Source: a virus. Taken from it: 24,612 nucleotides of DNA. Positions 1 to 19,226 of the stretch are shown piece by piece. The translations under genes were made by a program, and so were the position numbers. The DNA lies in the IMG/VR virus record IMGVR_UViG_3300045996_003089, positions 1 through 24,612 of that record; one strand, 5' to 3'. The notes under the pieces were generated by a model that searched no databases, had not been told where the DNA came from, and worked only from the letters and a program-made list of their open reading frames with translations. Position 1 is the first letter of the stretch; each line of letters opens with the position of its first letter.

Positions 1-1551
1 GGTGCGGCGCACGGCTTTGTACATGCCCCGCCGCTGCAACTCGCGGATCAGCGCCGGCTTGGCGGGGATGCCGTCGTCGGCGTCGGTGATCGTGTAGGTG
101 GTCTCCGGGCTTACTGCACCCGGCCCGTCTTCCTGCTGACGTACGATGCCTTCTGTCAGTTCCCTGTCGCCGATGTAGTACGATGGTTTGGTACTGTAAG
201 TACCTTGCAGAGTCACCATCACCCGATCGTCGCCTGCGGAGAAGTCCTGCATGCCGGCGCGGCGGGCGTTCTCGGCGTCTTCGCGCGAGATGCCCTCGAC
301 CTTGTGAACCATCGCCTTCCTGTTGCCGTACTTGGCGCGGACGGCTTTGAACCGTTTGATCGCGCCGACGCCGGGCCTCCAGGCTACCGGGGGGATGTCG
401 GTGGCCGTCATGTCTCCGTGGGGCACGGGCACTTTGACCGACTTCAGGTCGAGCTCGACCTGATCCACGCCCGACTGGTTGCGCTCACGCGAGTCGCGGA
501 TGACCTCGTCGTAGACTTCCTTGCGCGGCTGCGGGGTGACCCCGACGGCCTCGCGGCCGTCGTGCGTCATGTGCAGCTCCGTTCCCCCGCCCGACCCGGC
601 GCGCCCCTCGATGCGCACCTTCGCCTTCACGCCCCGGACTGTCTTAAGCTCTTGGTTTGTCTCGACGTTGTAGGCGCGCGCCTGGGTGGAGGGCAGTCTG
701 CGCAGCTCGGCGGCCACGACCGCGGCGTCGGCTTCCATTGTCCCCCGACCCCCGACCTGCTCGAAATCAACTTCTTCCCTGCCGTCTTCGTGGCGTACGA
801 CCCGCCGGTATCGCGCCCCTCCCGGCGCGTCCCGCACCGTGATCTCGTGCGAGGCTTTCCGCCCCACGCACGCGCCGAGCGACTTCACGAGCATCGGCGA
901 CGGGCGCTTGCCACAGATCTTGGGCATGCACAGCGCCTTGCGAACCGTGTCCTGGTTCGCGGGCATGACGACGGCGCTGACTTCGAGCAGCAGCGTCTGG
1001 AGCAGGTGCAGGCCCTGCGGCGTGCCCGTCATGTAGTCGGGCGACATGGGCATGGCCTTGACGACCTGGTAGCCGATGCTGCCCGCGCGGACGTAGCGTT
1101 TGGCGATCAGGTCGAAGAGCTGCTCGCAGAACAGGCTGTGGTCGTAGTCCTTCGCCGCGTCGTAGCCGGGCAGCGCGCCCTTGCCTTGGTAGAAGTACGC
1201 CTTGGCCCGAGCGGTCTTCCGCATCGGGTCGATCTCCATCATGTACGCCTTCGACTGCGGGTCCTCGCACAGCCCGATCGGCAGCGTCACCTGCTTGCCG
1301 TGGTCGAACAGTACCACGGGGTTCATGCGGTGGCGCTCGGTGTTGATGCCCCCGACCTCGAGCAGGTCGCCTACGCCGTCGCGGCGGTTGCCGTCGGCGT
1401 ACGGGATCCACACCGACATCTCCGACTCGTCGATGTCGAGGTCGCCGCCGAACATCGTGTCCATGCCGTACTGGAGGTTCTCCCCGAGCTTGTAGGAGAA
1501 CTTCGGGTCGTAGTGCGGTCGCGATTCCAGCAGCGTGATCGGGTCGGTCAT
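1..1551 (-). CDS. HK97-type prohead protease, long C-terminal extension, runs off left edge
   Basis: Serine protease that would cleave the capsid scaffold or delta domain during head maturation. The reading frame is open from the ATG at 1551 to the left edge (517 codons, no stop). Residues about 30-200 look like the prohead protease family: the segment LFDHGK supplies a candidate catalytic His84 and LLLEVSAVVMPAN supplies Ser192 in the family pattern E-x-S-x-x-x-x-P-A. After about residue 210 comes a long charged tail not expected of the core enzyme, which may act as scaffold or carry an added domain. The family is usually near 200 residues, so this protein is at least 2.5 times that length. 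The start overlaps the upstream stop as ATGA and is preceded by AGGGGAA. The major capsid gene is expected beyond the left edge. The protease assignment is fairly sure; the tail's role is unknown. Confidence 0.8.
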   Translation of the reverse strand, partial: MTDPITLLESRPHYDPKFSYKLGENLQYGMDTMFGGDLDIDESEMSVWIPYADGNRRDGVGDLLEVGGINTERHRMNPVVLFDHGKQVTLPIGLCEDPQSKAYMMEIDPMRKTARAKAYFYQGKGALPGYDAAKDYDHSLFCEQLFDLIAKRYVRAGSIGYQVVKAMPMSPDYMTGTPQGLHLLQTLLLEVSAVVMPANQDTVRKALCMPKICGKRPSPMLVKSLGACVGRKASHEITVRDAPGGARYRRVVRHEDGREEVDFEQVGGRGTMEADAAVVAAELRRLPSTQARAYNVETNQELKTVRGVKAKVRIEGRAGSGGGTELHMTHDGREAVGVTPQPRKEVYDEVIRDSRERNQSGVDQVELDLKSVKVPVPHGDMTATDIPPVAWRPGVGAIKRFKAVRAKYGNRKAMVHKVEGISREDAENARRAGMQDFSAGDDRVMVTLQGTYSTKPSYYIGDRELTEGIVRQQEDGPGAVSPETTYTITDADDGIPAKPALIRELQRRGMYKAVRRT

Positions 1552-4552: not shown

Positions 4553-5026
4553 TCAGCCCGAGACGACGGGGGTGTAGCTGACCGTCCAGCCGTCCTGGCC
4601 GCTCGTGGTCGTGTGGACCAGGCCGCTCGTGAAGGCGTAGCCCAGAGAGACCGTGCGGCCCGTGCGGAAGCCGCCGGAGACAGTCTTCTCGTAGTCGGCG
4701 AACCCCTTCCAGATGACCTTGTGACCGGAGGCCGAGAGCGGCCCGCCGCTGACGGCGACGGCGCTGTCGTAGAAGGTGATCGGCAGGCCCGAGTTGATGT
4801 CCGAGCCGTTGGCGACGGTGCGGACCGACGGCGGGTGGATGGTGACGGAGTCGAGCCGGCCCGCGCCGACGTGGATGCAGATGTCCGGGCCGACGGCGCC
4901 GCTCATGGCGCTGAAGGTCTTCGTGCCCCCGTAGGTGATCGGCACCTGGCCCGTGTTGGGCGTGCCGCTCTCGATCACCGAGCCGACGAGCACGGTGGGG
5001 TTCTTGGTGGGGTTGCGTTCCGGCAT
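4553..5026 (-). CDS. Beta-rich virion-like protein, 157 aa
   Basis: A 157-residue protein without signal peptide or membrane segment, rich in Gly, Ser, Thr and Val, as expected of a small beta-sandwich virion protein. Visible features are a central GAGRLDSVTIHPPS segment, an SGG-P-x-x-ASGH segment, and a C-terminal end reading DGWTVSYTPVVSG. Ser-Gly pairs recur as in the fibre proteins further right. I do not recognise a named family. A role in head decoration or tail appendage is inferred from composition and from its position between the glycan genes and the large ART-like protein. ATG 5026 is preceded by GGGAGG, 11 bases away. Confidence 0.7.
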   Translation of the reverse strand: MPERNPTKNPTVLVGSVIESGTPNTGQVPITYGGTKTFSAMSGAVGPDICIHVGAGRLDSVTIHPPSVRTVANGSDINSGLPITFYDSAVAVSGGPLSASGHKVIWKGFADYEKTVSGGFRTGRTVSLGYAFTSGLVHTTTSGQDGWTVSYTPVVSG

Positions 5027-5128: not shown

Positions 5129-6811
5129 CTAGGCGGGAGAGGCCTCCATGTACAGCGACAGGCACGGCAGCACGTCGAGGGTCTCGTTCAGGACCGTGGG
5201 GTCGCCCTCGCGGAAGGCGCGCGGCGTCGGGGCGAACCCGGCGGCGCGGAAGGCGTCGGAGAGCGTCGCGGCGTCGTAGCAGCTCTGGTGCCCGTCGTGC
5301 AGCAGCGCCCAGAGTTTACCCGCGGGCGTGGGCGCCTTCTCGCAGGACTCGCTGATCTCGTGGAACTCTTCCAGCTTGCCCGGGTCGAGCAGGTAGTACC
5401 CTTGCAGCAGCGAGGCGTCGGGCACGGAGACGCGGACGACGCCGTCGGGCCTGAGGACGCGGCGGCACTCGGCCAGGAACCTGGCGCCCTCGGCGTAGGT
5501 GAGCTTGTCGAGGAAGTGGTTGGCCAGGATCAGGTCCACGGCGCCCGTGCCGTAGGGCAGCCCGCCGCGCACGTCGAGCTGGCGGAACTTGTAGCGGTGC
5601 TGGTTGGCGAAGGCGCCCAGGTCGGCGATGTCGATGTTCTCCCACCCGTGGTGGTGCATGGTCAGGAAGCAGCCGACGTTCAGCTTGACGCGACCGCCCG
5701 CCTCGAACAGCGCGGCGGGCGCCGGGCCCGGCGACAGCGGCCCGGGGACCAGTTCGCCCTCGTACCCCGACCGGAACACCTCCCCGAACTGTTGATACCA
5801 CCAGTCGAGGGGGCGCGACGTACACCCGCCGTCGGGGTAGATCCCCAGCAGGCAGCGTCGCGACACGCGCGCCATCTCGGCGATGACTTTCGGGAGGTCG
5901 GCCTCAGGGACGTGTTCGAGCACGGCGTTGCCGAGCACCATGTCGAACTCTTTGTCTTTGAACGGCCAGGGGGTGTCGCAGAGGTCGCGGTTGATGAGGC
6001 CGTCGCAGGCGCGCGTCAGCCAGCAGTGCCGGCTGACCTCCAGGCCGTTGGCGCGCACGCCGGCGCCCTGGAGGCGCTTCATCAGGTAGCCCCGCGCCGC
6101 GCCCAGCTCCAGCACCGACTCGGGGCGGCGCTTCATGGCCTCGGCGAACGCGATGTCGTTCGCCTCGGAGTCCCGGTAGGCCTCCGTCAGCCCCCCGCCC
6201 GAGGCCTTCCCGTTGAAGTAGTCGCGGCCGAACGGCGTGGCAGGCGCCGCGGCGCCCGTAATCGCGGGCGCTTCCTCTTTCTTGGCAGGCTTCGAGGCGA
6301 TCACGGCCATGTCGGTCGGGCCACGGTCGGGGCCGTAGGGCTGCACGGTGATGTCCTCGAACCCCGCCTCGCCGAACAGTTTGACGGCCAGGTCGGGGTC
6401 CCAGTAGTTGCGGTGGGTGTTCTCCGGGTAGTCGTTGGCCCCGAACAGGATGCACGAGAACGACTCGAAGTCGTCCATGCCGTCCCAGCCCTCGGGGTGC
6501 GACTTGATCCACTCGATCTGCGCCTTGGTGTTGGCCGTGATCGTCAGCACCTTGCCGCCGGGCTTCGTGACGCGGTAGAGCTCGCGGACGAACTGCCGGA
6601 CCTTGCGCCACGACAGGTGCTCGATGACGAACTGGTTGAACACGCCGTCGAAGTCTTCGTCCTTGATGGGCAGCGGCTCGTTGAAGTCTGCGGTGAAGTT
6701 GATGTGCGGCCCGGGGCGGCAGTCCACGTGGACCTGGCAGGCCGGGTGCGGGTTGTCGCCGCAACCGAGGTCGAGGTACCTGCCGTTCGGGTCGGTGTTG
6801 AGCGTAATCAT
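5129..6811 (-). CDS. Three SAM-dependent methyltransferase domains in one polypeptide
   Basis: A 560-residue protein that looks like three consecutive class I methyltransferases. Domain 1 (about 1-175) has the SAM-binding motif YLDLGCGDN (12-20) and FVIEHLSW (61-68). A Lys/Glu/Ala-rich linker (about 174-192) leads to domain 2 (about 195-365) with VLELGAARGYL (233-243) and NAVLEHVPEADL. Domain 3 (about 370-560) has KLNVGCFLTMHHHGWENIDI (376-395), the form seen in the SAM methyltransferases associated with glycan gene clusters, but with NHFLDKL where the second motif usually has E-H. All three probably O-methylate sugars or another small acceptor; the substrate is unknown. ATG 6811 overlaps the previous stop (ATGA) and has GAGGGAG upstream. 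A longer frame reaching further upstream is antiparallel noise and is not used. Confidence 0.88.
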   Translation of the reverse strand: MITLNTDPNGRYLDLGCGDNPHPACQVHVDCRPGPHINFTADFNEPLPIKDEDFDGVFNQFVIEHLSWRKVRQFVRELYRVTKPGGKVLTITANTKAQIEWIKSHPEGWDGMDDFESFSCILFGANDYPENTHRNYWDPDLAVKLFGEAGFEDITVQPYGPDRGPTDMAVIASKPAKKEEAPAITGAAAPATPFGRDYFNGKASGGGLTEAYRDSEANDIAFAEAMKRRPESVLELGAARGYLMKRLQGAGVRANGLEVSRHCWLTRACDGLINRDLCDTPWPFKDKEFDMVLGNAVLEHVPEADLPKVIAEMARVSRRCLLGIYPDGGCTSRPLDWWYQQFGEVFRSGYEGELVPGPLSPGPAPAALFEAGGRVKLNVGCFLTMHHHGWENIDIADLGAFANQHRYKFRQLDVRGGLPYGTGAVDLILANHFLDKLTYAEGARFLAECRRVLRPDGVVRVSVPDASLLQGYYLLDPGKLEEFHEISESCEKAPTPAGKLWALLHDGHQSCYDAATLSDAFRAAGFAPTPRAFREGDPTVLNETLDVLPCLSLYMEASPA

Positions 6812-7509
6812 GACTCCCTCTTTTTGAACGTGCGGGGCGTGCGCCGCTTGCGCAGTTTGAACAGTGCCGAGACGGCGGGGACGCCGTGCAGGTTGCACAT
6901 CAGGTCGGGCCAGGTGGGCGAGGCGCCTACTTCGACCTCTTTGCCGTTCGCGTGGTACCTCTCCATCACGCGCGTGTGCAGGCCCTCCAGCACGAAGTCT
7001 TGGATCAGCCTCGAGGAGGCGCTGCCCCAGTCGTAGACGCGCCAGTGTGGCCACATCTCGAAGTGGGCGCCGCCGAACGGCACGACCAGGTAGCAGGAGC
7101 CGCCGTCCTTCAGCAGGTCGTAGGCGTAGCGCATGGCGACCACGTCCAGGTACTTGTGCGGCCTGGCGTCGTAGGTCGTCAGGCCGAAGTGTTCGACCGA
7201 CGACACCGCGATGACGCAGTCGACCCGGCCACGCCACGTCCGCCAGAAGTCGTCGGACAGCGCGCAGAAGTCGCCCGTTATGTGCGTGTGACGCATCGAC
7301 GGGGGCAGCCCGTCGAACGCCTCGTAGGGCCGCAGGTCCACGCTCAGGGCGCGCCACCCGGCGTGCGCCAGCATCAGCGACAGCGGGGCGTCGTGCGCCC
7401 CCACCTCGAGCACGACCGAATCGACAGGCTCGTCGAAATGGTCCAGAAAGAAACTACACTCCGGATCGAACTTCGGGTAACGCGCGCGTACCTCATCGGG
7501 GACCCTCAT
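6808..7509 (-). CDS. Class I SAM-dependent methyltransferase, 233 aa
   Basis: Single-domain methyltransferase. The motif VVLEVGAHDAPLSLMLA (32-48) binds SAM, VDLRP (57-61) carries the acidic ribose ligand, and DCVIAVSSVEHFG (97-109) corresponds to motifs around the active site. LLKDGGSCYLVVPFG further on is the post-core strand. The C-terminal 20 residues are strongly basic. The ATG at 7509 overlaps the stop of the 85-residue upstream gene as TGATG, and its own stop overlaps the triple methyltransferase start, so the three are likely translated together. A sugar or peptide-linked glycan is the likely substrate given the glycosyltransferases upstream; this is inference. Confidence 0.85.
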   Translation of the reverse strand: MRVPDEVRARYPKFDPECSFFLDHFDEPVDSVVLEVGAHDAPLSLMLAHAGWRALSVDLRPYEAFDGLPPSMRHTHITGDFCALSDDFWRTWRGRVDCVIAVSSVEHFGLTTYDARPHKYLDVVAMRYAYDLLKDGGSCYLVVPFGGAHFEMWPHWRVYDWGSASSRLIQDFVLEGLHTRVMERYHANGKEVEVGASPTWPDLMCNLHGVPAVSALFKLRKRRTPRTFKKRES

Positions 7510-7766
7510 CAGTTGCGCCCCCCGGAACCGTAGGGGGCGTTGGGCTTCTGCGCGGCGACGGGGAACGTGTGCATGCCGATGATGTTCTCCAGCTCCACGG
7601 CGTAGGCGGTGCCGTTGAGGTCCACGCCGTCCACGGTGATCTGCCTGCGCGCGTGCAGGGCGCGCGTCTTCCACGCCTCGAGGATCTGCCCCGCGTGGTC
7701 GGCCGTCAGCACGAGGTCGAGGAACATCCCGTGGCGGAGCAGGAACCTAAGACCGATCTGACCCAT
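7509..7766 (-). CDS. Small protein in glycan locus, 85 aa, unknown
   Basis: An 85-residue protein with a hydrophobic start (FLLRHGMFLDLVL) followed by amphipathic and beta segments and a Pro/Gly-rich tail. No family recognised. ATG 7766 has a strong GGAGGAGG eight bases upstream. The gene overlaps the end of the preceding glycosyltransferase by 20 bases and the following methyltransferase by one base (TGATG), so it is embedded in the operon and is unlikely to be spurious. It may be a small partner of a neighbouring enzyme, or an unrelated small phage protein. Confidence 0.7.
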   Translation of the reverse strand: MGQIGLRFLLRHGMFLDLVLTADHAGQILEAWKTRALHARRQITVDGVDLNGTAYAVELENIIGMHTFPVAAQKPNAPYGSGGRN

Positions 7767-8817
7767 CGAGCAGCCTCCTCCAGGCGGTTTGGTAGCGGTG
7801 CCTGACTTTGTCCCAGGTGTGGTCCGCGGCGGCGGCGCGCCAGTCGGGGTAGCCGTAGCCGGTGCCGGCGCCGCGGTAGCGGATCTCGTCGATCTTGCCC
7901 GCCAGCTCCTCGGCGTCGCGTGGCGTGGTGCGGTACCATTCGGGCACCAGGTCGGCGGCGCCGGCGCCCTTGCTGCACAGCACGGGGCGGCCGTGCGCCA
8001 TGGCCTCGACCACCTCGATGCCGAAGCCCTCGGTGACGCTGGGCTGCACGTAGAGCGAGACGCCGTTGTAGAAGTCGCTCACGTCGCCGACCCACCCGAG
8101 CACCTGGACGTTGCCGCGGCCCGCGGCGCGTATCATGTGCTGCACGAAGGGGTGGGTCGTGTGCCTGCCGGCGATCTTCAGCACCGCGTCCTTGTAGCGC
8201 AGCTTGCCCCACGCCTGGATCAGATAGATCAGCCCCTTGTCGGGGCCGACGGCGCCCAGGTAGCCTACGGTGAACGTCTTGGGCGGGGGCGCGACCCGTT
8301 CTGGCAGGTCGCAGCCGTGGGGGATGACTTCTATCGGGCCCGTGCGCCCCTGCCCTCGCACCACCTCCATGGAGTGCGTCGAAGGCACGATCAGCAGGTC
8401 GGCCTCCATGTACCCGCCCGCGTAGCGCTTGAACAGCCCGGGGTCGGTCAGGTGCGGGTAGTCGTACGACCCGGCTATCGCGACGTGCTCCTTGCGTGAC
8501 TCCTCGACGCTGTGCGCGGCACAGGTGTAGCTGACTTTGGCGCCCAGCTTCTTGAACCTGCTGACGGCGCGCGAGAAGGTCCCCGAGTAGATCTGCACCA
8601 ACTTCAGCTGGTCGAAATTCACGCCCCCCAGATGCGCGGCGCACACCGTCTCGTCCCAGTGCCACGGGTCGCCGCCACCGAGCAGCGCCGGCTCTAGCGT
8701 CTTACGGTCCACGACCGTACACGGGCCCAGCGCCTTCAGGGCCTCGGACTCTTGATAGGTCACCAGGCCGCCGCCCGAAGGGGTGCCCACCTCGTCGGCG
8801 GTGAGGTAGAGGTTCAA
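7747..8817 (-). CDS. GT4-type glycosyltransferase (GT-B fold), 356 aa
   Basis: Retaining glycosyltransferase of the GT4 type, transferring a sugar from a nucleotide donor to an unknown acceptor. The N-terminal Rossmann half is less conserved; it starts MNLYLTADEVG with a glycine-rich loop GTPSGGG. The hinge is IEVIPHGCD (162-170), the donor-site strand is VGYLGAVGPDKGL (184-196), and the signature EX7E is Glu263 and Glu271 in EGFGIEVVE. The start is TTG at 8817 in a TTGA overlap with the GroES-like gene and has GGGAG upstream; no ATG is available nearby in frame. Length is typical. Position among two further glycosyltransferases and several methyltransferases indicates assembly of a modified glycan. 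Confidence 0.9.
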   Translation of the reverse strand: MNLYLTADEVGTPSGGGLVTYQESEALKALGPCTVVDRKTLEPALLGGGDPWHWDETVCAAHLGGVNFDQLKLVQIYSGTFSRAVSRFKKLGAKVSYTCAAHSVEESRKEHVAIAGSYDYPHLTDPGLFKRYAGGYMEADLLIVPSTHSMEVVRGQGRTGPIEVIPHGCDLPERVAPPPKTFTVGYLGAVGPDKGLIYLIQAWGKLRYKDAVLKIAGRHTTHPFVQHMIRAAGRGNVQVLGWVGDVSDFYNGVSLYVQPSVTEGFGIEVVEAMAHGRPVLCSKGAGAADLVPEWYRTTPRDAEELAGKIDEIRYRGAGTGYGYPDWRAAAADHTWDKVRHRYQTAWRRLLDGSDRS

Positions 8818-9071
8818 CGTTCGGACTCCCGGGGCTCGTCGATCGCCTCCTCGTAGGCGCTGCCGTGCCGCTCGACCACGGCGATCACGTCGTCCTCGCG
8901 GACGATGATGATGCCGTTGCGCGAGTCGACGACGCGGTAGTCGGCGTCGTCGATGAACACCTCGTCGCCGTCCTCGAGGTCCTCGACGGCGGGGCCGACG
9001 TACTCGACGGTGTAGTTCGTCAGCCGTTTACGGAGCACGACGCAGTCGTTGCGCGGTCGGTAGGATATCAT
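8814..9071 (-). CDS. GroES/Cpn10-like small protein, 85 aa
   Basis: Resembles the 10-kDa co-chaperonin fold. An N-terminal strand PRNDCVVLRK (6-15) matches the usual P-x-x-D-x-V-x-V-x-x start. EYVGPAVED (23-31) and DGDEVFIDD (34-42) correspond to the central barrel, and IIIVREDDVIAVVE (54-67) matches the conserved closing strand of GroES. The stretch that normally holds the mobile loop that docks on GroEL is shortened to a few residues, so ordinary co-chaperonin action is doubtful. An acidic 18-residue tail follows. ATG 9071 has AGGAGA six bases upstream. Phages do encode GroES substitutes for capsid folding; alternatively this barrel was recruited as a structural part. Confidence 0.6.
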   Translation of the reverse strand: MISYRPRNDCVVLRKRLTNYTVEYVGPAVEDLEDGDEVFIDDADYRVVDSRNGIIIVREDDVIAVVERHGSAYEEAIDEPRESER

Positions 9072-9080
9072 GCGTCTCTC

Positions 9081-9467
9081 CTAAAAGTGCCCAGAGTACG
9101 TGAGCGGCTCCACCGACGGCGGCGACGGAGGCCCGACGATGATACTGCCGGAGGCGCCGTATAAATAAGGCGCCGTCGGCCAGGACCCGACTCCTATGGC
9201 GCCCGAGCAGACCACGCCGCTCACAATTGACATTGTTGGCCCCGGCCCGGCGGTGACGGTTAGGGGCTCTCGGTACCACGACCCGCCCGGCGTGAACCCG
9301 CCGCGCACGAGTTGCGCCGCGTCGGGGCGGCCCTCGTCGGTCAGCCAGTCGGCGAAGGCGTCGCGCGTCAGTTTGTCGCCGGGGTCGGTGCGCAGCAGGT
9401 GCGCGAACACGCGCTCCTGGGGCTTCATCAGCATTTCGGTGAGGTAGATGAATTCCTGAGGCGTCAC
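9081..9467 (-). CDS. Repeat-companion-like N-terminus with beta-rich C-terminus, 128 aa
   Basis: The N-terminal half (about 18-56), with LLRTDPGDKLTRDAFADWL and DEGRPDAAQLVR, closely follows the pattern of the 'repeat-companion' domain found at the start of many Planctomycete and Myxobacterial proteins (D-x-x-R-x-x-x-A-D-W-L-x-x-x-G). The second half (about 57-128) is Gly/Ser/Pro-rich and looks like a short virion beta segment, so the gene may be a fusion. The GTG at 9467 is chosen because it overlaps the FkbM stop (GTGA) and has AGGAGGG just upstream. Function unknown. Its value is mainly as a hint of host range. Confidence 0.65.
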   Translation of the reverse strand: MTPQEFIYLTEMLMKPQERVFAHLLRTDPGDKLTRDAFADWLTDEGRPDAAQLVRGGFTPGGSWYREPLTVTAGPGPTMSIVSGVVCSGAIGVGSWPTAPYLYGASGSIIVGPPSPPSVEPLTYSGHF

Positions 9468-10447
9468 ACGACCCTCCTGGCGCTGAGCGCCGCCTCGCGC
9501 GTCTTCGGCGTAAGGTCGAACGACGGCGGGCCTTTGAAGCACCACATATCGCACAGCAGCTCGCGGAGCTGGTTGTCCTTCAAGAACTCGCGCACTTTGT
9601 TCAGATCCACGAGGTCCAGTTCGCCCGTCTCGTGGTTCTCGATGCGCACCGTGAAGCCCAGCTCCTCGACGCGGTCGATCAGCTCGAACTCGCTGCCGCC
9701 CGTGTGCCGAAGCCCCAGGGCCCAGAGCTCCATCGACAGCGCGACGCCCGGCGACCGCGCCAGCGTGGCGGCGGCGCCGAGCAGCACCTGCTGCTCGCAG
9801 CCCTGCGTGTCGATCTTTATCAGGTCCACCTTGGCGCCGCCCAGCTCGTCGTCCAGCGTCGAGACGGTCACGCCGACGTGCTCGCGCGCCTCGTTCGGGT
9901 CGGGCCAGATCCTGTGGTCGCCGTTGTTGTCCACCGACTTCGGGCTGAAGTACAAATTGGCGAGGCCTACGTACGAGTACAGCGCCTTCTCACGCACCTC
10001 CGCCATGCCGTCCAGGCCGTTGAGCGTCAGGTTCTTGCGCAGCACGGCGGCGCAGCGGGGGTGCGGCTCGAAGGCGTAGACTCTGCCCGTAGGCCCGACC
10101 ATCTTCGCCAGGGGCACGGTGAACATGCCGATGTTGGCGCCCACGTCGACCACGGTGCCCCCCGGCCTCAGGTGCGCCCGCGCCATGTTCAGGTGCGCGT
10201 CGTCGCCGCCGCCCTTCTTCATGACGCGGCCGATGGCGTCGTCGTCGGTGATGAACACGAGCGACCCCGACGAGAACGCTAGCGACAGGTGGCCCCCGGC
10301 CAGCTCGCGGACCGCCTCGGCCTCGGCCCCCATGCCGTGGCCCGCCTGGCGCAGCGCCTCCTTCAGCAGGCAGGCGCACAGGGACCCGTTGTGTTCGCGC
10401 AGCACGGACCGGATCTTGTCGAGCTTATCGTCGGGGAGGGGGAACAT
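9464..10447 (-). CDS. FkbM-family methyltransferase, 327 aa
   Basis: SAM-dependent O-methyltransferase of the FkbM family, which commonly methylates sugars of surface polysaccharides and secondary metabolites. The core runs from about residue 90 to 290: VVDVGANIGMFTVPLA (99-114) binds SAM, VYAFEPHP (123-130) holds the acidic ligand, and DLIKIDTQGCEQQVLLGA (208-225) is the family signature with DTQG in place of the more frequent D-V-E-G. The first 85 residues are a helical extension. ATG 10447 overlaps the preceding glycosyltransferase stop as TGATG and follows a G-rich stretch. Its place between glycosyltransferase genes supports sugar methylation. Confidence 0.9.
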   Translation of the reverse strand: MFPLPDDKLDKIRSVLREHNGSLCACLLKEALRQAGHGMGAEAEAVRELAGGHLSLAFSSGSLVFITDDDAIGRVMKKGGGDDAHLNMARAHLRPGGTVVDVGANIGMFTVPLAKMVGPTGRVYAFEPHPRCAAVLRKNLTLNGLDGMAEVREKALYSYVGLANLYFSPKSVDNNGDHRIWPDPNEAREHVGVTVSTLDDELGGAKVDLIKIDTQGCEQQVLLGAAATLARSPGVALSMELWALGLRHTGGSEFELIDRVEELGFTVRIENHETGELDLVDLNKVREFLKDNQLRELLCDMWCFKGPPSFDLTPKTREAALSARRVV

Positions 10448-11487
10448 CACCAACCCCCCGTTTCGAGTGCTTCTTTGCACAGCTCTTCGTAGCGGGATAC
10501 CATGTTCTCGACGGAGAACTGTAGGGCGTGCTCGCGGCAGAGTTCACGATCTCTACTGCTTAAAGCTGCCGGAGTAGAAGAATAGAATTTGATTTGATCT
10601 ACGAGTTCCTCGTAGCTTCCAACTAAATTGACCTCACGCGCCCACACCGTTTCTTTCATGGCGCCGTAGCGCCAGGCGATGACGGGGCAGCCGCACAGCA
10701 TGGCCTCGACTGGCGCCAGGCCGAACGGCTCGCGGAAGCGCTGGTTGGGGTGCAGCAGGGCGTGCGCCTGCGTGAACCACCGCACGCACTCGCCGCGCGT
10801 CGCCGGGCCGACCATTCGGATCTGGTCGCCGTCGCACTGGGCCTTGCACCGCTCGAAGTAGTCGGGCTCGTGGGTGATGCTCGTGTCTCCCACCAGGTCG
10901 AGGCCGACTCCCGCCTCCTTGCACGCTTGAATGGCCAGGTCGGCGCCCTTGATGCTGCTGAACCGCGCCAGGAACAAAAACCGGTCGGTGCGGGGCACGC
11001 CGTAGATCGGCTTGTAGTAGTCGGGGTCGACGCCGTTGTAGGCGTAGCGCGCCTCGCGGTCGAACAGCGCCTCGAAGTGGTTGGCTTGGTCCTTGCTGAT
11101 GCACACGAAGCAGGGCTTCTCGACGGGGGGCAGCGTCTGGTACATCGTGTTGACGGGCGCGTGCATGACCCCGAGCACGGGCGCCTTCAGCACCCCCTCG
11201 GCCTTGAGCAGGTAGGAGTGCTTCTGCCAGCTGTTGTCGACGACGACATCGGCGCCCAGCAGGTGCTGCCAGTATTTCTGGTACGCCATGTGCTCGTCGT
11301 GCTGCCCGGCGGGGCCCGTCGGGAGCACCTTGGCGTGCTCGGCCCAGGAGCCGTCCGGGGCGACGAGCGTGACCTCGTGGCCACGCTTCGCCAGGCCCTC
11401 CGCCTGGAGCCAGGCGAGGTGTTCCAGGCCGCTGTAGCCGGGGGGCGGGCACGGGAAGACGGGCGTGCTGACGACGGTGACCTTCAT
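10447..11487 (-). CDS. GT4-type glycosyltransferase (GT-B fold), 346 aa
   Basis: Second GT-B retaining glycosyltransferase. The N-terminus MKVTVVSTPVFPCPPPGYSG with LAWLQAEGLAKRGHEVTLVA is typical of GT4 enzymes that act on polysaccharides. The hinge segment is YAYNGVDPDYY (148-158), the donor domain begins FLFLARFSSIKGADLAI (170-186), and EX7E is Glu253 and Glu261 in EPFGLAPVE. ATG 11487 overlaps the upstream stop as TGATG. The last 55 codons (about 10470-10640) are noticeably less GC-rich than the rest, which may mark a recombined end. Confidence 0.92.
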   Translation of the reverse strand: MKVTVVSTPVFPCPPPGYSGLEHLAWLQAEGLAKRGHEVTLVAPDGSWAEHAKVLPTGPAGQHDEHMAYQKYWQHLLGADVVVDNSWQKHSYLLKAEGVLKAPVLGVMHAPVNTMYQTLPPVEKPCFVCISKDQANHFEALFDREARYAYNGVDPDYYKPIYGVPRTDRFLFLARFSSIKGADLAIQACKEAGVGLDLVGDTSITHEPDYFERCKAQCDGDQIRMVGPATRGECVRWFTQAHALLHPNQRFREPFGLAPVEAMLCGCPVIAWRYGAMKETVWAREVNLVGSYEELVDQIKFYSSTPAALSSRDRELCREHALQFSVENMVSRYEELCKEALETGGW

Positions 11488-12164
11488 CAGGTGCTCGAGG
11501 TGGAGTCGACGGGTACGAAGCTGTGGTAGTCGGCCTGCGCGTAGCCGATGTGGCGGCAGCGGACGCTCGTGTCGACGAGCACCTTGTAGCCGAACTGCGT
11601 CTTGGCGCGCATGCACATGGTGAAGTCTTCGCTGAGCGCCTGCCCGGGCGGGAACAGGTGCTGCGCGTCCACGCGCCAGTCGAACACGGGCTTCTCGGGG
11701 CGGCGAGGGTCGGGGTTGGCGAAGAACTTCTCGAGGACGCCCCGCTTGATGAGCAGGCAGCCCGCGCCGACCACGTCCACCTCGAGCATCGGGTCCTGCG
11801 ATTTGGGGTCGGGCAGCTCGCGCACCCAGTCGCCGTTTTTGAGCATGACCGGGATGCCGTGCGGCGGGCTGCGGCGGCAGTAGACGCCGCTGACGATGTC
11901 GGCGTCGCGCGCCAGCAGTCGCGGCACGGCGTCGCGCGGGGGCACCACGTCGCTGTCGAGGAAGAAGACGTGCGAGAAGCCGTACTGGAGGGCCTGCTGG
12001 CACGCCTGGTTGCGCGCCATGTCGTACGGCATGCCCGCCAGGCCGATGAACTGCCCGGGGATCTGCAAATTGCGCAGCCCGAAGGCCCAGGCGACGGTGA
12101 CCGTGTCCACGTGCAGGATGGCGCCGAGGACGCGGTGCTGGTGCTGTTCCCAAGCTCCTGGCAT
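11487..12164 (-). CDS. GT-A fold glycosyltransferase (GT2-like), 225 aa
   Basis: Short GT-A glycosyltransferase. HVFFLDSDVVPP (65-76) carries the D-x-D motif (Asp70, Asp72) that binds the metal and nucleotide sugar. VSGVYCRR (91-98) and GAGCLLIKR (133-141) are conserved in this group. SEDFTMCMRA (178-187) supplies the acidic catalytic-site pair, and CRHIG with His205 fits the C-terminal metal ligand. At 225 residues it is a minimal catalytic domain, as often found in phages. ATG 12164 is preceded by GAGGG and lies in one copy of a 19-base direct repeat. It is probably the first enzyme of the glycan operon, and may add the first sugar to a protein acceptor (inference). Confidence 0.88.
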   Translation of the reverse strand: MPGAWEQHQHRVLGAILHVDTVTVAWAFGLRNLQIPGQFIGLAGMPYDMARNQACQQALQYGFSHVFFLDSDVVPPRDAVPRLLARDADIVSGVYCRRSPPHGIPVMLKNGDWVRELPDPKSQDPMLEVDVVGAGCLLIKRGVLEKFFANPDPRRPEKPVFDWRVDAQHLFPPGQALSEDFTMCMRAKTQFGYKVLVDTSVRCRHIGYAQADYHSFVPVDSTSST

Positions 12165-12679: not shown

Positions 12680-12853
12680 TCAGTAATCGGGATTATCGGA
12701 AGTCCCCGTGACCGAAGCGCCCGTGACGTTGCCGCCCGTGATGTAGACGGTCTCCTTGACCTCCGAGGGCTGCTTGGGCGTCGCCGTGAAGGCCGAGTCG
12801 GGGAACTGGATGAGGGACTCGGTGGGGCAGACTTGGCTGAAGTCGATCGTCAC
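12680..12853 (-). CDS. Small virion-operon protein, 57 aa
   Basis: A 57-residue protein beginning at GTG 12853, which overlaps the upstream stop (GTGA) and has AGGAG seven bases before it. The C-terminal half (VYITGGNVTGASVTGTSDNPDY) repeats a short N/S-V-T-G pattern similar to the small glycine-rich virion proteins nearby. Unrecognised family; probably a minor virion or fibre-associated part. It is the last gene before the hairpin that ends the fibre block. Confidence 0.65.
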   Translation of the reverse strand: MTIDFSQVCPTESLIQFPDSAFTATPKQPSEVKETVYITGGNVTGASVTGTSDNPDY

Positions 12854-13524
12854 CCGCTGCTCCTTTGCATCACGAAGGCCATGGGCAGCGGGTCGCTGGT
12901 GCCGCCGCTGACGCCGTTGGCCGTGAACAGCAGCTTGACCGTGACCGCGTCCACGTCGCCGCTCGTCAGCGCCTGCAGGTTGTAGAACCCCCGGCCCACC
13001 TCGGTGAACGCGCCGCTCTGGAGCGCGCTCGGGGTGGTGGCGCCGTCGCGCCAGATCTGGCCGCTGACGACGCCCGACACGAACGGCGTGACGTGGTCGG
13101 CCGCCGACTTCAGGTAGAGCGGGAAGTTCAGCACCATCTCGCTGCGCGCCAGGCGCACGGGCGTGTTCCGCGCCAGCAGGCCGCTCGTCGCCAGGTCCGA
13201 GAGGGGCAGGCGCTTGGTGCCGTCCCACTCGACCTCGCCGCCCGCGAAGCAGTTGTCGGTCTGCGCGGGCGACCCCGCCGCCTGCTGCCGCGCGTCGATG
13301 TCGAACACGCCCGCGGGCACGGCGGCGGGGAAGTTGCCGACGTAGATGTTGCTGGCGCCCTGTTCGGTCAGCGCCACGTCGTAGTCCGTCCAGTGGTCCG
13401 AGTCGAAGCCCTCGAACCCGCCGGTGCCCCCCGACGTGCTCCAGACGCTGCTGCCGCTGCCCCGGATGAGGAAGTAGCAGGTCATCCCCGTGCCGGGGCC
13501 TTTCGTCTTCACCTCTCCGGGCAT
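12850..13524 (-). CDS. Virion structural protein, probable fibre or baseplate part, 224 aa
   Basis: A 224-residue protein with two beta-rich halves. The first has NIYVGNFPAAVPAGVFDIDA and a central GGEVEWDG. The second begins LARSEMVLNFPLYLKSAADH and contains QIWRDGATTPSALQSGAFTE and GRGFYNLQALTSGDVDA, followed by VTVKLLFTANGV. The pattern 'input value, Gly-rich step, gain over the strand' is typical of small beta domains in phage tail-tip and receptor-binding proteins, but I cannot name a family. ATG 13524 has GAGGTGA five bases upstream. It lies just after the methyltransferase gene, whose stop is 9 bases before. Confidence 0.75.
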   Translation of the reverse strand: MPGEVKTKGPGTGMTCYFLIRGSGSSVWSTSGGTGGFEGFDSDHWTDYDVALTEQGASNIYVGNFPAAVPAGVFDIDARQQAAGSPAQTDNCFAGGEVEWDGTKRLPLSDLATSGLLARNTPVRLARSEMVLNFPLYLKSAADHVTPFVSGVVSGQIWRDGATTPSALQSGAFTEVGRGFYNLQALTSGDVDAVTVKLLFTANGVSGGTSDPLPMAFVMQRSSG

Positions 13525-13533
13525 AGGCTCACC

Positions 13534-14175
13534 TCACGGCTTGTCCACTCGGAAACACAGCACCTTGAGCTCCACCTTGCGCGGCTCGTGCGGCTCGGGG
13601 GACAGCTCGTCGAACGTGTACTTTAGCACGTCTTCGGGCTGTTCGGTCAGGCGCTGCCCGAACAGCCCGAAGATCGACCTCGCCACCGACAGGTCGATCG
13701 TGTGGTTGTGGCGCGCGTTCGGCGCCACGTCGAACGTGACGAGCAGGCGCCCCTTCGACGCTAGTACGCGCCAGAGCTCGCGTACGACGCTCTGCGGGTC
13801 GTCGATGTGTTCGAGGACGGAGACGCACACGACGCGGCTGAAGACGTTCTCGTGGAACTGTGACAGCCTCTTGAGGTCTCCTTTGGCGCTGAGCACGCCG
13901 TTGACCGAGGGCTGCTTGGCCGTGTCGAGATCGACGTTGACGACCTGCACCCCCTTTTCACTCAGGAAGTGCTGTAGGGCGCCGTCGCCGCCCGCGGCGT
14001 CGAGGCACCACTGCCCGGGCTCGAACACGCCTTGCAGCGATACCCAGGGGTACTCGAAGGCGCGCGACCAGTGCTTCACGTCGTGGTGGGTGGCGTACCA
14101 GTGTTTCAAATCGCGCATCGGCGCATCGGTCTGCGCCCGCGCCCAACAGGAATCGAAGTTCTCGCCTCGCAGCAT
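13534..14175 (-). CDS. SAM-dependent methyltransferase among fibre genes, 213 aa
   Basis: Class I methyltransferase, type-11 pattern. WCLDAAGGDGALQHFL (56-71) is the SAM-binding loop, VVNVDLD (78-84) carries the acidic ligand and VCVSVLEHIDDP (116-127) is motif IV with the following helix. SKGRLLVTFDV is the post-core strand. The ATG at 14175 overlaps the stop of the 873-residue fibre gene (TGATG), so the enzyme is coupled to its fibre. This placement makes the fibre, or a glycan on it, a plausible substrate; that is inference. It is separated from the other methyltransferases by about 4 kb. Confidence 0.87.
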   Translation of the reverse strand: MLRGENFDSCWARAQTDAPMRDLKHWYATHHDVKHWSRAFEYPWVSLQGVFEPGQWCLDAAGGDGALQHFLSEKGVQVVNVDLDTAKQPSVNGVLSAKGDLKRLSQFHENVFSRVVCVSVLEHIDDPQSVVRELWRVLASKGRLLVTFDVAPNARHNHTIDLSVARSIFGLFGQRLTEQPEDVLKYTFDELSPEPHEPRKVELKVLCFRVDKP

Positions 14176-16796
14176 CAGAAGTTCCCCGGCGGGGACGCCA
14201 TGGCCCCCGAGGTGATGATGTTGTCGGGGTTGACGACGATGCCGCCCGAGTAGGCGACGCCCAGGCGCTGCCAGCCCTGCCCGGAGACGAGCAGCGACTG
14301 CGCCACGATCATGCCCCCGCTGCCCACGTAGAGCGGGCGGCCCTGCTCGCCGCTCCAGGTGGCGTCGAGCGTGGAGGGCGCCAGCACCGACCTGCCGATG
14401 ATGACCGTCGCCACGTCGCCCGAGGCGAAGTTGTCGGCGACGACCCCCACGGCGGGCAGGCGCAGGCCGCTCCCGGCCATCGCCAGCGCGATCACGTTCC
14501 CCGACGTGATGCAAACGGCCTTGAAGCCGCTCACCCTCTCTACTGTAGGCATCAGGAAGTAATCGTACAGTCCCGAAACGAGATGGCCCCGGCCGACGGC
14601 CCCCGAGCCGATGTGCCCGCTGCGCACGGCGCCCGAGCCGATGTGCAGCCAGGTGATCCCGCCCGAGGCGAGGTGGTGCGACTGCACCGTGCCGCTGCCG
14701 ATGTCGAAGCTGCCCACCGTGCCGCTGGCGACGCAGTGCGCCCCCGACGAGTTCGCGCCCAGCACGGCGCCCGAGGCCACGTGGCCGCTGTGGACGGCGC
14801 CCGACGCGATATGGTTCTGCGACACGACCCCGGCGGCGATGTTGCCGCTGAGCACGCCGCCGTCGGCCAGGTGGGGCCAGGCGATGCTGCCCGAGGCGTA
14901 CTTGCCCGACGCGATGGCGGCGGCGGCCACGTTCCCCAGCGCCGTGCCGCTGCTCAGGTGGTTGACGCCGATCTGCCCGCTGGCGACGTGGCCGCTCTGC
15001 ACGCCGCCCGACGCCAGGTCGAGCGGGCCGATGCTGCCGCTGGCGATGTTGAGGTTGCCCCCCGCCAGCGACCCCGCCACGGCGCCCGAGGCGACGTGGC
15101 CGCTGTGGACGGCGTCGATGCCCAGCTGGTACCGCTGCACGCCGCCGCTGTTCAGCACGACGCCGCTGGCCAGGTGCATCTGCCCGATCTGCCCGGAACC
15201 GATGTTGCCGCTCAGCACCCCGCCCGACGCGATCTTGAACGTCGTGACCGCGCCCGAGGCGAGGGCGGTGTTCCAAACGGAATCATTGGCAAGATGTCCG
15301 CTGCTGACACTGTTGTCGGCCAGATGATTTCGACCCACCTGTCCAGAGCCGAACGCACCCGAGAGCAGGCCGCCGCTCGCGACATGGAGCGTGAACACCG
15401 AGCCGCTAGAGATCGAGCCGCTGACGACAGAATTATTACCGAGAGCGCCGCTGCGCACGCCGCCAGAAGCGATATGGTCATTACCGATTTGCCCACTGGC
15501 GAAGGCCCCCGAGGTCAGGCCGCCCGACGCGATCTTGAGCGTCTGGATGCTGCCCGACGCGATGTTAGTGGTCCAGATGGAGTCGGCGGCGAGCTGGCCG
15601 CTCTGCACGGCGCCCGACGCCAGCGCCGCCTGGCCGATCTGCCCGGCGCCGAAGGCGCCCGACTGGAGGCCGCCGCTGGCGATCTTGAGCGTCGTGACCG
15701 ACCCCGACGCGATGTTCGTCGTCCAGACGCTGTTGGCGGCCATCTGCCCCGACTGCACGGCGCCCGACGCGAGATGGGCCTGGCCGATCTGCCCGGCGCC
15801 GACGGCGCCCGACCCCAGGCCCCCGTCCACGACGTGCAGGGTGCCGATCGCGCCCGAGGCGACGCTGCCGGAGATGACCGAGGCGTTCGCCAGTTTGCCC
15901 GACAGGATCTGGCCGCTGCCGACGTGTACGCCGCCCAGCACGCCGCTGCCGACGCTGCCCGACGCCACGGCGCCGTTGCCCAGGTGTCCGCTCTGCACGG
16001 TGCCGCTGGCGACGAGTACGATGCCCGTGCCGAAGTGGAAGGTGCCGATCTGCCCGCTACCGATGTTACCGCTCAGGACCCCGCCGCTGGCGATGTGCGT
16101 CGTCCCGATCTGGCCCGACGCGATGCCGCCCGACACGACGGTGGCGTTGGCGATGCGGCCGCTGCCCACGCCGCCCGACGCGATGTGGAAGTTCGTCAGC
16201 TGGCCGCTGCCTACCGAGCCGGAGAGCACGGAGGAGTCGCCCAGCAGGCCCGAGCCGATGCTCCCCGACGAGTTCCCTATCAGGCCGCTGGCGAAGTGCA
16301 TCGGCCCGATCTGCCCGGAGCCGATGTTCCCCGACAGCACGCCCCCCGAGGCGATGTGCGTCGTGCCGATCTGGCCCGAGGCGACGTTGCCCGACAGCAC
16401 GGCGGCGGCGCCCAGCGCGCCGCTGCGGACGCCCAGCGCGGCGATGTGGTCGTGGCCGATCTGGCCGCTGCCGAACGCGCCCGACAGCAGGCCGCCGCTC
16501 TGCACGTGGAGGGTGTAGACCTGGCCGCTGGCGATGTTATTGAGCAGTACGGCGCCCGACCCCAGCTGGTTGGCGACGACGAAGCCGCTGGACCCGTGCG
16601 ACTGGCCCAGTTGCCCCGAGGCGATGTTACCGCTCAGGACCCCGCCGCTGGCGATGTGTGTGTTGCCGATCTGCCCGCTCGCCACCGAGCCGCTGACGAC
16701 GGACCCGTTGCCGAGGTACCCCGACGTGACCGCGCCCGAGGTCAGAGCCACCGATTGGAGCACGACGTATCCCCCCAGCCTGTTCGGGTTGAGCAC
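14175..16796 (-). CDS. Giant Ser-Gly repeat tail fibre, 873 aa
   Basis: Long virion fibre. Residues about 14-742 consist of an almost uninterrupted five-residue pattern, (A/G/L)-S-G-x-(V/I/L/F), for instance ASGGV, LSGNI, ASGQI, GTTHI in succession, giving 20-residue super-repeats. It resembles the A-D-G-A-V-T-T-A-K-I repeats known in phage fibres and pentapeptide-repeat beta-helices, with Ser-Gly taking the usual variable places. The C-terminal 131 residues (from LYDYFLMPTVERV) are non-repetitive and include GEQGRPLYVGSGG and GWQRLGVAYSGG, as in terminal domains of virion proteins. The start is GTG 16796, with AGGG ten bases upstream. The many Ser-Gly pairs are candidate glycosylation sites. 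A patch at about 15270-15495 uses less GC-rich codons. Confidence 0.88.
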   Translation of the reverse strand: MLNPNRLGGYVVLQSVALTSGAVTSGYLGNGSVVSGSVASGQIGNTHIASGGVLSGNIASGQLGQSHGSSGFVVANQLGSGAVLLNNIASGQVYTLHVQSGGLLSGAFGSGQIGHDHIAALGVRSGALGAAAVLSGNVASGQIGTTHIASGGVLSGNIGSGQIGPMHFASGLIGNSSGSIGSGLLGDSSVLSGSVGSGQLTNFHIASGGVGSGRIANATVVSGGIASGQIGTTHIASGGVLSGNIGSGQIGTFHFGTGIVLVASGTVQSGHLGNGAVASGSVGSGVLGGVHVGSGQILSGKLANASVISGSVASGAIGTLHVVDGGLGSGAVGAGQIGQAHLASGAVQSGQMAANSVWTTNIASGSVTTLKIASGGLQSGAFGAGQIGQAALASGAVQSGQLAADSIWTTNIASGSIQTLKIASGGLTSGAFASGQIGNDHIASGGVRSGALGNNSVVSGSISSGSVFTLHVASGGLLSGAFGSGQVGRNHLADNSVSSGHLANDSVWNTALASGAVTTFKIASGGVLSGNIGSGQIGQMHLASGVVLNSGGVQRYQLGIDAVHSGHVASGAVAGSLAGGNLNIASGSIGPLDLASGGVQSGHVASGQIGVNHLSSGTALGNVAAAAIASGKYASGSIAWPHLADGGVLSGNIAAGVVSQNHIASGAVHSGHVASGAVLGANSSGAHCVASGTVGSFDIGSGTVQSHHLASGGITWLHIGSGAVRSGHIGSGAVGRGHLVSGLYDYFLMPTVERVSGFKAVCITSGNVIALAMAGSGLRLPAVGVVADNFASGDVATVIIGRSVLAPSTLDATWSGEQGRPLYVGSGGMIVAQSLLVSGQGWQRLGVAYSGGIVVNPDNIITSGAMASPPGNF
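14571..16757 (-). repeat. Protein-level pentapeptide repeat, (A/G/L)-S-G-x-hydrophobic
   Basis: About 146 successive five-residue units encoded without a gap. Position five is nearly always Val, Ile, Leu or Phe and position three is mostly Gly. Where units fall in the order ASGGV, LSGNI, ASGQI, G-x-x-H-I the super-repeat is 20 residues. A right-handed quadrilateral beta-helix with four units per turn would fit (inference). Confidence 0.85.
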
Positions 16797-17423: not shown

Positions 17424-19226
17424 TCAGTCCGTGTCGAGGGAGGCGACGGGGGAGGCCCCGGAGACGACGGTGATCGTCTGCGTGTAGGCGACCGTCGAGT
17501 CGTCTTCTTGGTACACCGTCAGGAAGCCGCTGGTGGCCGTCAGGCTCCACTTGTTGGTGAGCTTGCGCCCGGCGTTGACGAGGCAGCGCCCGCTGGGGCC
17601 GCTCAGGAACAGCGTCGAATACTGCGACCAGTCCTTCGTGAGAACCTCGTCGGCGACGAGCGCCGTCTGGCCGCTCGCCAGCCACGTCTGGCCGCTGAAC
17701 GACGCGGGCAGCACGGTGGCGTACACCCCGGAGTTGACGATCACGCCCGACAGGTTGGCGGGCAGCACGGTCGCGTGGACGCCGCTGTTGACGATGACTC
17801 CGGAGATGGTGGCTTTGGGGACTGTTACGAACACACCGGAGATGCTCGCCGGGTCCACAGTGGCCGTGGCCGTGACGAACAGACCGGAGTTCGCGATCAC
17901 GCCGCTCAGGGTGGCGGTCGGGACGGTCGCGAAGATGCCCGAGTTGGCGATGACGCCGGAGATCGTCGCTTTGGGAACCGTCACGAACAGACCACTGTTG
18001 GCGATCACCCCCGACAGGTTCTCCGGGAGCACCGTCACGTAGCCGCCGCTCTCCGTCACGACGCCCGACAGGGTCGCGGGGGGCACGGTGGCGAAGATGC
18101 CGGAGTTCGCGATCACGCCGCTCAGGGTGGCGACGGGCACCACGACGTGGTGGCCCGAGGCGACGAACGTGGTGCCCGAGACGATAATCACGACCACGCC
18201 CGAGATGCTCGCCGGGTCGACGGTCGCCGTGGCCGTGACGAACAGACCGCTGTTGGCGATGACACCAGAGATGGTGGCTTTCGGGACGGTCGCGAAGACG
18301 CCCGAGATGCTGGCGGGGTCCACCGTCGCGGTCGCGGTCACGAACAGGCCGGAGTTCGCGATGACGCCGCTAATGGTGGCTTTCGGCACCGTGACGAACA
18401 GACCACTGTTGGCAATCACGCCCGACAGGTTCTCCGGGAGCACGGTGGCGTAACCACCGCTCTCCGTAACCACACCGCTGATCGTCGCCTTGGGCACGGT
18501 GGCGAACACACCGGAGATGCTGGCGGGGTCGACCGTAGCCGTGGCCGTGACGAACAGACCGGAGTTGGCGATCACGCCGGAGATCGTCGCCTTGGGGACT
18601 GTGACAAACACGCCGGAATTGACGATCACCCCAGACAGGTTCTCTGGCAGCACGGTGGCGTAACCACCGCTCTCGGTCACTACTCCGGAGATCGTCGCTT
18701 TGGGGACGGTGGCGAAGACGCCGGAGATGTTCTCAGGCAGTACAGTGGCGTACCCGCCGCTCTCGGTCACTACTCCGGAGATGGTGGCCTTAGGCACCGT
18801 CACGAAGATGCCCGAGTTCGCGATCACCCCCGACAGGTTCTCGGGCAGCACCGTCGCGTAGCCGCCGCTCTCCGTCACGACGCCGCTCAGGGAGGCCTTG
18901 GGGACGGTGGCGTTCGCGCCCGAGGCCGGGTGGACGAAGCCGCTGATCCCGCCCAGCGTGACGAGGCTGTACTGCACGGGCACGCAGCCCGACGCCGTGA
19001 ACAGGTACCCTGCCGTGTCGCCGTTCGTGTCGAAGTCGTACAGGTTGGCCCGGTAGCTGCCGCCGCCCAGCTCGATGATGTTGCCGCTCAGGACGATCAT
19101 GCCCGACAGGCCGTCGAGCGACTTGCGGCCGCTGATGCTGCCGCTGCTGTTCGTGACCGCGATGCCCGAGCGGGCGCAGACGAGCGCGAAGTACAGGAAC
19201 TGGCCGCTCGTGTTCTTCTTAATCAC
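17424..19226 (-). CDS. Modular tail fibre with 12/18/22-residue repeats, 600 aa
   Basis: Fibre in three parts. The N-terminal 113 residues begin MIKKNTSGQFLYFALV and include ISGRKSLDGLSGMIVLSGN and GGGSYRANLYDFDTNGD, resembling the attachment domains of many phage fibres. Residues 114-510 are exactly 22 modules, each starting Ser-Gly-Val or nearly so: 13 of 18, four of 12, four of 22 and one of 27 residues. The last 90 residues (from SGQTWLASGQ) contain RCLVNAGRKLTNKWSLT and TVYQEDDSTVAYTQ, a C-terminal domain often seen on phage structural proteins. The start is GTG 19226 (GTGA overlap, G-rich Shine-Dalgarno). Probably a side or tip fibre contacting the host. Confidence 0.85.
   Translation of the reverse strand: MIKKNTSGQFLYFALVCARSGIAVTNSSGSISGRKSLDGLSGMIVLSGNIIELGGGSYRANLYDFDTNGDTAGYLFTASGCVPVQYSLVTLGGISGFVHPASGANATVPKASLSGVVTESGGYATVLPENLSGVIANSGIFVTVPKATISGVVTESGGYATVLPENISGVFATVPKATISGVVTESGGYATVLPENLSGVIVNSGVFVTVPKATISGVIANSGLFVTATATVDPASISGVFATVPKATISGVVTESGGYATVLPENLSGVIANSGLFVTVPKATISGVIANSGLFVTATATVDPASISGVFATVPKATISGVIANSGLFVTATATVDPASISGVVVIIVSGTTFVASGHHVVVPVATLSGVIANSGIFATVPPATLSGVVTESGGYVTVLPENLSGVIANSGLFVTVPKATISGVIANSGIFATVPTATLSGVIANSGLFVTATATVDPASISGVFVTVPKATISGVIVNSGVHATVLPANLSGVIVNSGVYATVLPASFSGQTWLASGQTALVADEVLTKDWSQYSTLFLSGPSGRCLVNAGRKLTNKWSLTATSGFLTVYQEDDSTVAYTQTITVVSGASPVASLDTD
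17697..18887 (-). repeat. 22 tandem fibre modules of four lengths
   Basis: The 397 residues split exactly into 22 modules. Common 18-residue forms are SGVIANSGIFVTVPKATI and SGVVTESGGYATVLPENL. The 12-residue form is SGVFATVPKATI, and the 22-residue form contains ATATVDPASI. Three of the four 22-residue modules are followed directly by a 12-residue one; the fourth is followed by the single 27-residue module. Protein identity is high while many synonymous bases differ between modules. Confidence 0.9.

Follow-up and report, generated by a model that had tools for sequence, protein, structure and literature searches.

In GtfA/GtfB-type systems, serine-rich repeats are modified first by GT4 enzymes, and other glycosyltransferases (GTs) carry out the extension. 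The staphylococcal enzymes SdgB and SdgA modify the serines of Ser-Asp repeats in a stepwise manner (PMC3794999), and in mycobacteriophages, phage-encoded GTs are presumed to decorate virion proteins (Freeman et al. 2023, as cited in PMC12619734). Here, we analyzed a 24.6-kb viral fragment from IMG/VR (IMGVR_UViG_3300045996_003089, positions 1 to 24,612; hereafter, the window), in which a cassette of three GT genes (GTA, GT4a, and GT4b) and several methyltransferase genes (FkbM, MT1, MT6, and the triple-domain MT3) lies within the virion operon, next to genes for fibers rich in the Ser-Gly (SG) dipeptide. By analogy with the systems above, we consider it fairly probable that the enzymes of this cassette attach O-glycans to SG-motif serines in the virion fibers and then methylate the glycan. 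We found no description of SG fiber glycosylation in phages in the literature searched, whose coverage leaves out most subscription journals.

The likely acceptor, which the initial annotation did not name, is the SG motif of the fibers. The 873-aa fiber contains 95 SG dipeptides versus 27.5 expected, with a spacing of 5, 10, or 15 for 79 of 94, while the 600-aa fiber contains 56 versus 8.5 expected, spacings of 6 and 12 being the commonest. In the nonrepeat proteins of the operon, SG occurs at 2.07 times its expected frequency, and the related dipeptides GS, TG, and AG occur at 1.01, 0.91, and 0.93 times theirs; the corresponding value for SG is 0.75 in the enzymes and 0.65 in the portal and protease.

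Single-protein scans of viral contigs with GTA, the portal, MT3, and GT4b gave no match, nor did a portal scan of prokaryote genome contigs, and no DNA relative of the window was found in the phage collection searched. Relatives were obtained with a fiber DNA pattern (DNA for repeats of the form SGQIGxxHIASGG) and then with a GT4a profile. The pattern yielded 31 stretches in viral contigs, and 15 of the 20 fiber-pattern records searched encode an MT3 relative (about 40 to 60% identity). The GT4a profile, which is independent of the fiber, retrieved 41 viral loci in IMG/VR, and 40 GT4a sequences formed 11 clusters at 70% identity; one pattern-based, nonexhaustive scan of 84,980 bacterial and archaeal genomes gave no GT4a relative. 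Most of these loci have the fixed order GTA-GT4a-(MT6-MT1)-GT4b-MT3, in which the bracketed methyltransferases are optional. Conserved gene order in related phages had been set beforehand as a check on the initial annotation of this DNA, and it was found across the GT4a-profile loci. The nearest relatives (G005, G001, and G020) largely keep the order of the window, namely, portal, SG fiber, g224, GTA, GT4a, GT4b, MT3, g157, and protease, although the G020 fragment lacks the portal; protease homologues are present in all three, and g224 homologues occupy the same place. Two closely related loci also encode a DegT aminotransferase, a formyltransferase, and an epimerase (and L070 a C-methyltransferase too), as would be expected if an unusual aminosugar were made. 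The four core GT groups of the “moraphages” (PMC12619734) may correspond to this cassette.

An SG-rich open reading frame (ORF) lies upstream of GTA at 30 of the 32 loci that have 2 kb or more of flanking sequence and at 17 of the 18 that have 8 kb or more, compared with a background of 4 in 80 9-kb windows taken away from the cassette. At L100, which is counted among the 30, the sole SG-rich ORF is a 219-aa g224 homologue; at the two loci without a strongly SG-rich upstream ORF, the SG excess of the fiber is lower yet significant (70 versus 43.6 and 29 versus 13.6). In a 390-kb contig, just 2 of 539 ORFs are SG rich, and both lie close upstream of its single cassette, while all six large SG-rich ORFs of a 225-kb contig are located no more than 25 kb upstream of the cassette. 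Random placement gave P values of 0.0016 over five long contigs and 0.0014 over seven. In dozens of phage sequences, SG fibers and the enzyme genes nearly always co-occur, and it is therefore probable that the phage coats its own fibers with methylated sugars. The earlier proposal that the enzymes build and methylate a glycan destined for the virion is well supported by both the conserved gene order and the tight linkage to SG fiber genes.

The initial annotation had placed one GT-A enzyme, two GT4 enzymes, an FkbM methyltransferase, and further methyltransferases between positions 5129 and 12164, and matches in Pfam, NCBIfam, and PHROG agree with this. GTA itself falls below the Pfam cut-offs and matches phrog_1574 and a glycosyltransferase PHROG. 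Its DxD and SED motifs (D70, D72, E179, and D180) are invariant in 20 homologues, its AlphaFold2 model has a predicted local distance difference test score (pLDDT) of 88.8, and solved GTs match the model at Z scores of 15 to 20. The nearest solved folds include STIV A197 (Z, 19.7; root mean square deviation [rmsd], 3.1; 175 residues aligned), the LH3 GT domain (Z, 17.6; rmsd, 4.5; 190 aligned), Mnn9, mimivirus R699, and COLGALT1 (Z, 15.2; rmsd, 4.0), among which LH3, COLGALT1, and Mnn9 are protein GTs. Motifs and model together indicate a GT-A fold enzyme (GT2-like) with a predicted DxD metal motif and catalytic acidic residue. GT4a and GT4b match Glycos_transf_1/Glyco_trans_1_4 above the cut-off and belong to GT4; TarM is among the PDB sequence relatives of GT4b. 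None of the three GTs has a clear membrane segment; the only borderline stretch is at the first predicted strand of GTA. Many low-G+C relatives (L059, positions 15279 to 16448; L060; L061; and others) encode, divergently beside GTA, a protein of 389 to 410 aa with weak similarity to GTA (24 to 28%), which is probably a fourth GT. Two BFVD entries (A0A6J5M7M7 and A0A6J5T3W3) have GTA-like folds inside large proteins of uncultured Caudovirales. One of these proteins bears the name FkbM methyltransferase, which suggests that GT-A/FkbM fusions may exist.

All of the methyltransferase genes expected from the initial annotation are present, including the additional one at 13534 to 14175 (MT6), but MT1 falls below its Pfam cut-off, and the third domain of MT3 has an altered S-adenosylmethionine (SAM) loop. 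FkbM matches PF05050 (63.4 bits) and TIGR01444 (104.7 bits; cut-off, 37.7), which places it in the family. MT1 homologues (40 to 44% identity) occupy the equivalent place in other phage cassettes, at 11 loci. MT3 relatives share 41 to 52% identity over their full length; in an alignment of 28 sequences, motif I is intact in domains 1 and 2 and altered in domain 3, where the second glycine of GxG is replaced (GSF, GCF, or GCY) in the homologues examined. With this replacement, SAM binding by domain 3 may be abnormal. The number of methyltransferase domains, which had been thought unusual, is not unique to this phage, and the triple enzyme is standard in the module. In contig G009 (L066/L106), many frameshifts break the cassette genes, probably through assembly or sequencing error. 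The stops within its MT3 at first suggested recoding, but the reading frame shifts repeatedly along the gene, in keeping with frameshift errors.

We infer the following order of enzyme action and benefit to the phage, with stepwise O-glycosylation of SG serines and then methylation modeled after SdgB/SdgA. The fibers would be made first, after which one of the three soluble GTs would put a sugar on the Ser of Ser-Gly. Candidates for this starter are a GT4 enzyme (as in Sdg/Gtf) or GTA, whose gene is nearest the fiber and whose fold neighbors include protein GTs; the remaining two would extend the sugar chain. The methyltransferases would then act on the sugars, MT3 nearly always and MT6, MT1, and FkbM variably, with methyl transfer presumably to sugar hydroxyls, as FkbM and the company of genes suggest. 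The outcome would be fibers densely studded with short methylated O-glycans, presenting a stiff, protease-resistant, and chemically variable surface with a role in host contact and shielding. The methylated cap suggested in the initial annotation might hide the virion or mimic host polysaccharide. Evenly balanced, in our judgment, is the broader proposition that SG is a phage-specific O-glycosylation sequon and that a mobile module of SG fiber plus GT-GT-GT-triple methyltransferase, shared by phages on contigs ranging in length from less than 15 kb up to 390 kb, yields mucin-like, methylated glycan fibers.

An alternative that we regard as doubtful is that the cassette glycosylates other virion proteins, such as the capsid or tail tube, and that SG is a structural turn motif that happens to be nearby. 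Two Manatee Spring phages do carry single GT-A genes immediately behind the major capsid gene, and mycobacteriophage capsid and tail tube subunits are reported to bear glycans (cited in PMC12619734), but the cassette and SG genes remain adjacent in very different genomes. SG also sits at a fixed phase of the period-5 or period-6 repeat, as a turn motif might; however, its excess reaches nonrepeat operon proteins and not the portal and protease, and the same repeat type elsewhere does without it. We compared 18 other records with period-5 fibers, comprising ten isolated phages, complete or near complete, and eight metagenomic contigs. Apart from TVCOM_ph1 (described below) and, mildly, L182 (2.6 SG per 100 aa; 21 versus 9.8), these fibers carry AG, DG, NG, or AA in place of SG, and 17 of the 18 lack strong SG enrichment. 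Neither GT4a nor GTA was found in any of the 18, some of which are short fragments where absence is weak evidence; two positive controls were detected. The KIADG-type tail fibers of cyanophages, Arthrobacter phage Mimi, and others share this pentapeptide repeat, including its one hydrophobic phase, but, unlike the window fiber, have SG near expectation and no cassette. Since most of these records use other dipeptides, the period-5 fiber type does not demand SG, and the enrichment seen here goes beyond what that type needs; SG usually accompanies the cassette.

Several observations nevertheless weigh against glycosylation of SG fibers by the cassette. The SG-rich period-5 fiber of Terrisporobacter phage TVCOM_ph1 (L175, positions 8497 to 9480; 8.8 SG per 100 aa) has no accompanying cassette, and SG is therefore not a sure sign of the cassette; either a host enzyme modifies this fiber or SG plays a different part. 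GT4a is missing from five SG-pattern contigs: three seem truncated close to the SG genes, in G010 the SG genes are at one end of the contig, and G012 contains only a paralogue of GTA. The locus counts are not fully independent because the enzyme genes on the contigs share ancestry, and SG could partly represent a turn motif that multiplied as the repeats expanded. Finally, a fiber model made without an alignment reached a pLDDT of only 43.5 and was discarded.

The host envelope and DNA bases had both been named as alternative targets in the initial annotation, and both alternatives are weakened here. Less likely, and in our view improbable, is that the enzymes remodel host surface polysaccharide (for serotype conversion or superinfection exclusion), their genes being cargo that was inserted into the virion operon. 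GT4/GT2, FkbM, and sugar-nucleotide genes are typical of surface polysaccharide loci, and L076 contains a Capsule_synth-like ORF. Yet the GTs lack a clear membrane segment and lie inside the virion operon, their linkage to SG fibers is constant, and the scan of bacterial genomes, which are rich in polysaccharide loci, gave no relative. Gtr-type serotype conversion employs a membrane-bound GT, a flippase, and a lipid-carrier GT, and no flippase or lipid-carrier enzyme was recognized among the window genes scanned. Hypermodification of phage DNA bases is very unlikely: phage GTs often act on DNA (discussed in PMC12619734), but these sit in a virion operon, the GTA fold is nearest to protein/glycan GTs, and a thymidylate synthase/hydroxymethylase family gene is absent from 11 of 12 cassette contigs, the 390-kb one included, and present in G001, with the caveat that contigs may be incomplete and the window is a fragment.

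All recognized genes of the window are on the minus strand, running from the portal through the fiber and glycan genes to the prohead protease at the opposite end (Table 1). The enzymes do lie between the fiber genes and the protease, as first described, but g157 and a 903-aa protein without a family match (1811 to 4522, minus strand) intervene between cassette and protease. Likewise, the overlapping starts hold for GTA/GT4a, GT4a/FkbM, and MT1/MT3, whereas the enzymes do not strictly follow one another, being interrupted by three small ORFs.

Table 1. Features of the window and the matches on which they rest
Feature	Coordinates	Strand	Match or basis	Remarks
Prohead protease, S78-like	1..1551	-	PF04586, 19.8 bits (below cut-off of 21)	Open at window end
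g157	4553..5026	-		SG excess, 9 vs 2.6 expected; conserved after MT3
MT3, triple-domain methyltransferase	5129..6811	-	Methyltransf_11, three stretches, 98 bits	
MT1, single methyltransferase-like protein	6808..7509	-	PF03269, 21.6 bits (below cut-off of 25)	
85-aa ORF	7509..7766	-		Between GT4b and MT1
GT4b glycosyltransferase	7747..8817	-	PF13692, 86.2 bits	
85-aa GroES-like ORF	8814..9071	-	NF001528, 20.4 bits (cut-off, 119)	Between TIGR02996 ORF and GT4b
TIGR02996 domain ORF	9081..9464	-	32.1 bits (cut-off, 29.05)	SG-rich tail, 4 vs 1.3 expected
FkbM methyltransferase	9464..10480	-		Accessory; probable start ATG at 10447
GT4a glycosyltransferase	10447..11487	-	PF00534, 57.5 bits	Most conserved cassette member
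GTA, GT-A glycosyltransferase	11487..12164	-	Motifs and predicted fold	First gene of conserved cassette
g224, structural-type protein	12850..13524	-		SG excess, 9 vs 2.8 expected
MT6 methyltransferase	13534..14175	-	PF08241, 48.6 bits	
873-aa fiber	14175..16796	-		Pentapeptide period; proposed main acceptor
600-aa fiber	17424..19226	-		Hexapeptide period; proposed acceptor
Portal protein	21840..23519	-	PF04860, 119 bits	Upstream end of virion operon

Homologues of the TIGR02996 ORF lie beside GT4b in the G001 record, and the observation extends to L072 and to L068, where the match is subthreshold. The family is named for Gemmata obscuriglobus, which suggests planctomycete hosts. The ORF at 8814 to 9071 resembles the C-terminal half of GroES, with a match far under the cut-off, and is possibly a phage cochaperonin; the one at 7509 to 7766 has no homologue in the loci examined. 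A middle stretch of the 903-aa protein (RAEVYRGVDLSYS...) looks like a putative ADP-ribosyltransferase-type motif. Directly after the portal is a 198-aa protein (21263 to 21859, minus strand) with VNVPEQKAP-type repeats, and G005 has a relative of it at the same place.

If SG fibers are indeed glycosylated by the cassette, then phages would possess a protein glycosylation system with a recognizable acceptor motif, and glycosylated fibers would therefore be predictable from sequence in many uncultured phages, jumbo phages included. The sequon (SG) would be simple and testable, new protein O-glycosyltransferases and glycan methyltransferases could be obtained from the cassette, and phage-host contact would have a chemical layer that sequence-based host range models ignore.

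How does this locus compare with described systems? STIV A197, LH3, and COLGALT1 are among the nearest solved folds of GTA, but sequence identity is only 14 to 24%, the eukaryotic enzymes LH3 and COLGALT1 act on hydroxylysine, and a common fold does not prove the acceptor. Compared with GtfA/GtfB, no GtfB-like subunit or accessory secretion system was recognized in the phage cassette, the proposed acceptor is a phage fiber, and methylation is added. The staphylococcal SdgA/SdgB enzymes and their Ser-Asp adhesins (PMC3794999, PMC8561734) are a further parallel, in that a surface protein with a dipeptide repeat is modified stepwise on its repeat serines by dedicated GTs, as we propose here; GT4b, moreover, is related in sequence to TarM, an enzyme mentioned together with SdgA/SdgB in PMC3794999. 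However, the candidate acceptor here is SG rather than SD, which sets it apart from the Ser-Asp repeats, and the putative modification system is phage encoded and adds a GT-A partner and several methyltransferases. Finally, while the mycobacteriophage glycan sites described in PMC12619734 are at the C termini of capsid and tail tube proteins, the sites proposed here are a repeat dipeptide of the fibers, served by a fixed GT-GT-GT-MT module.
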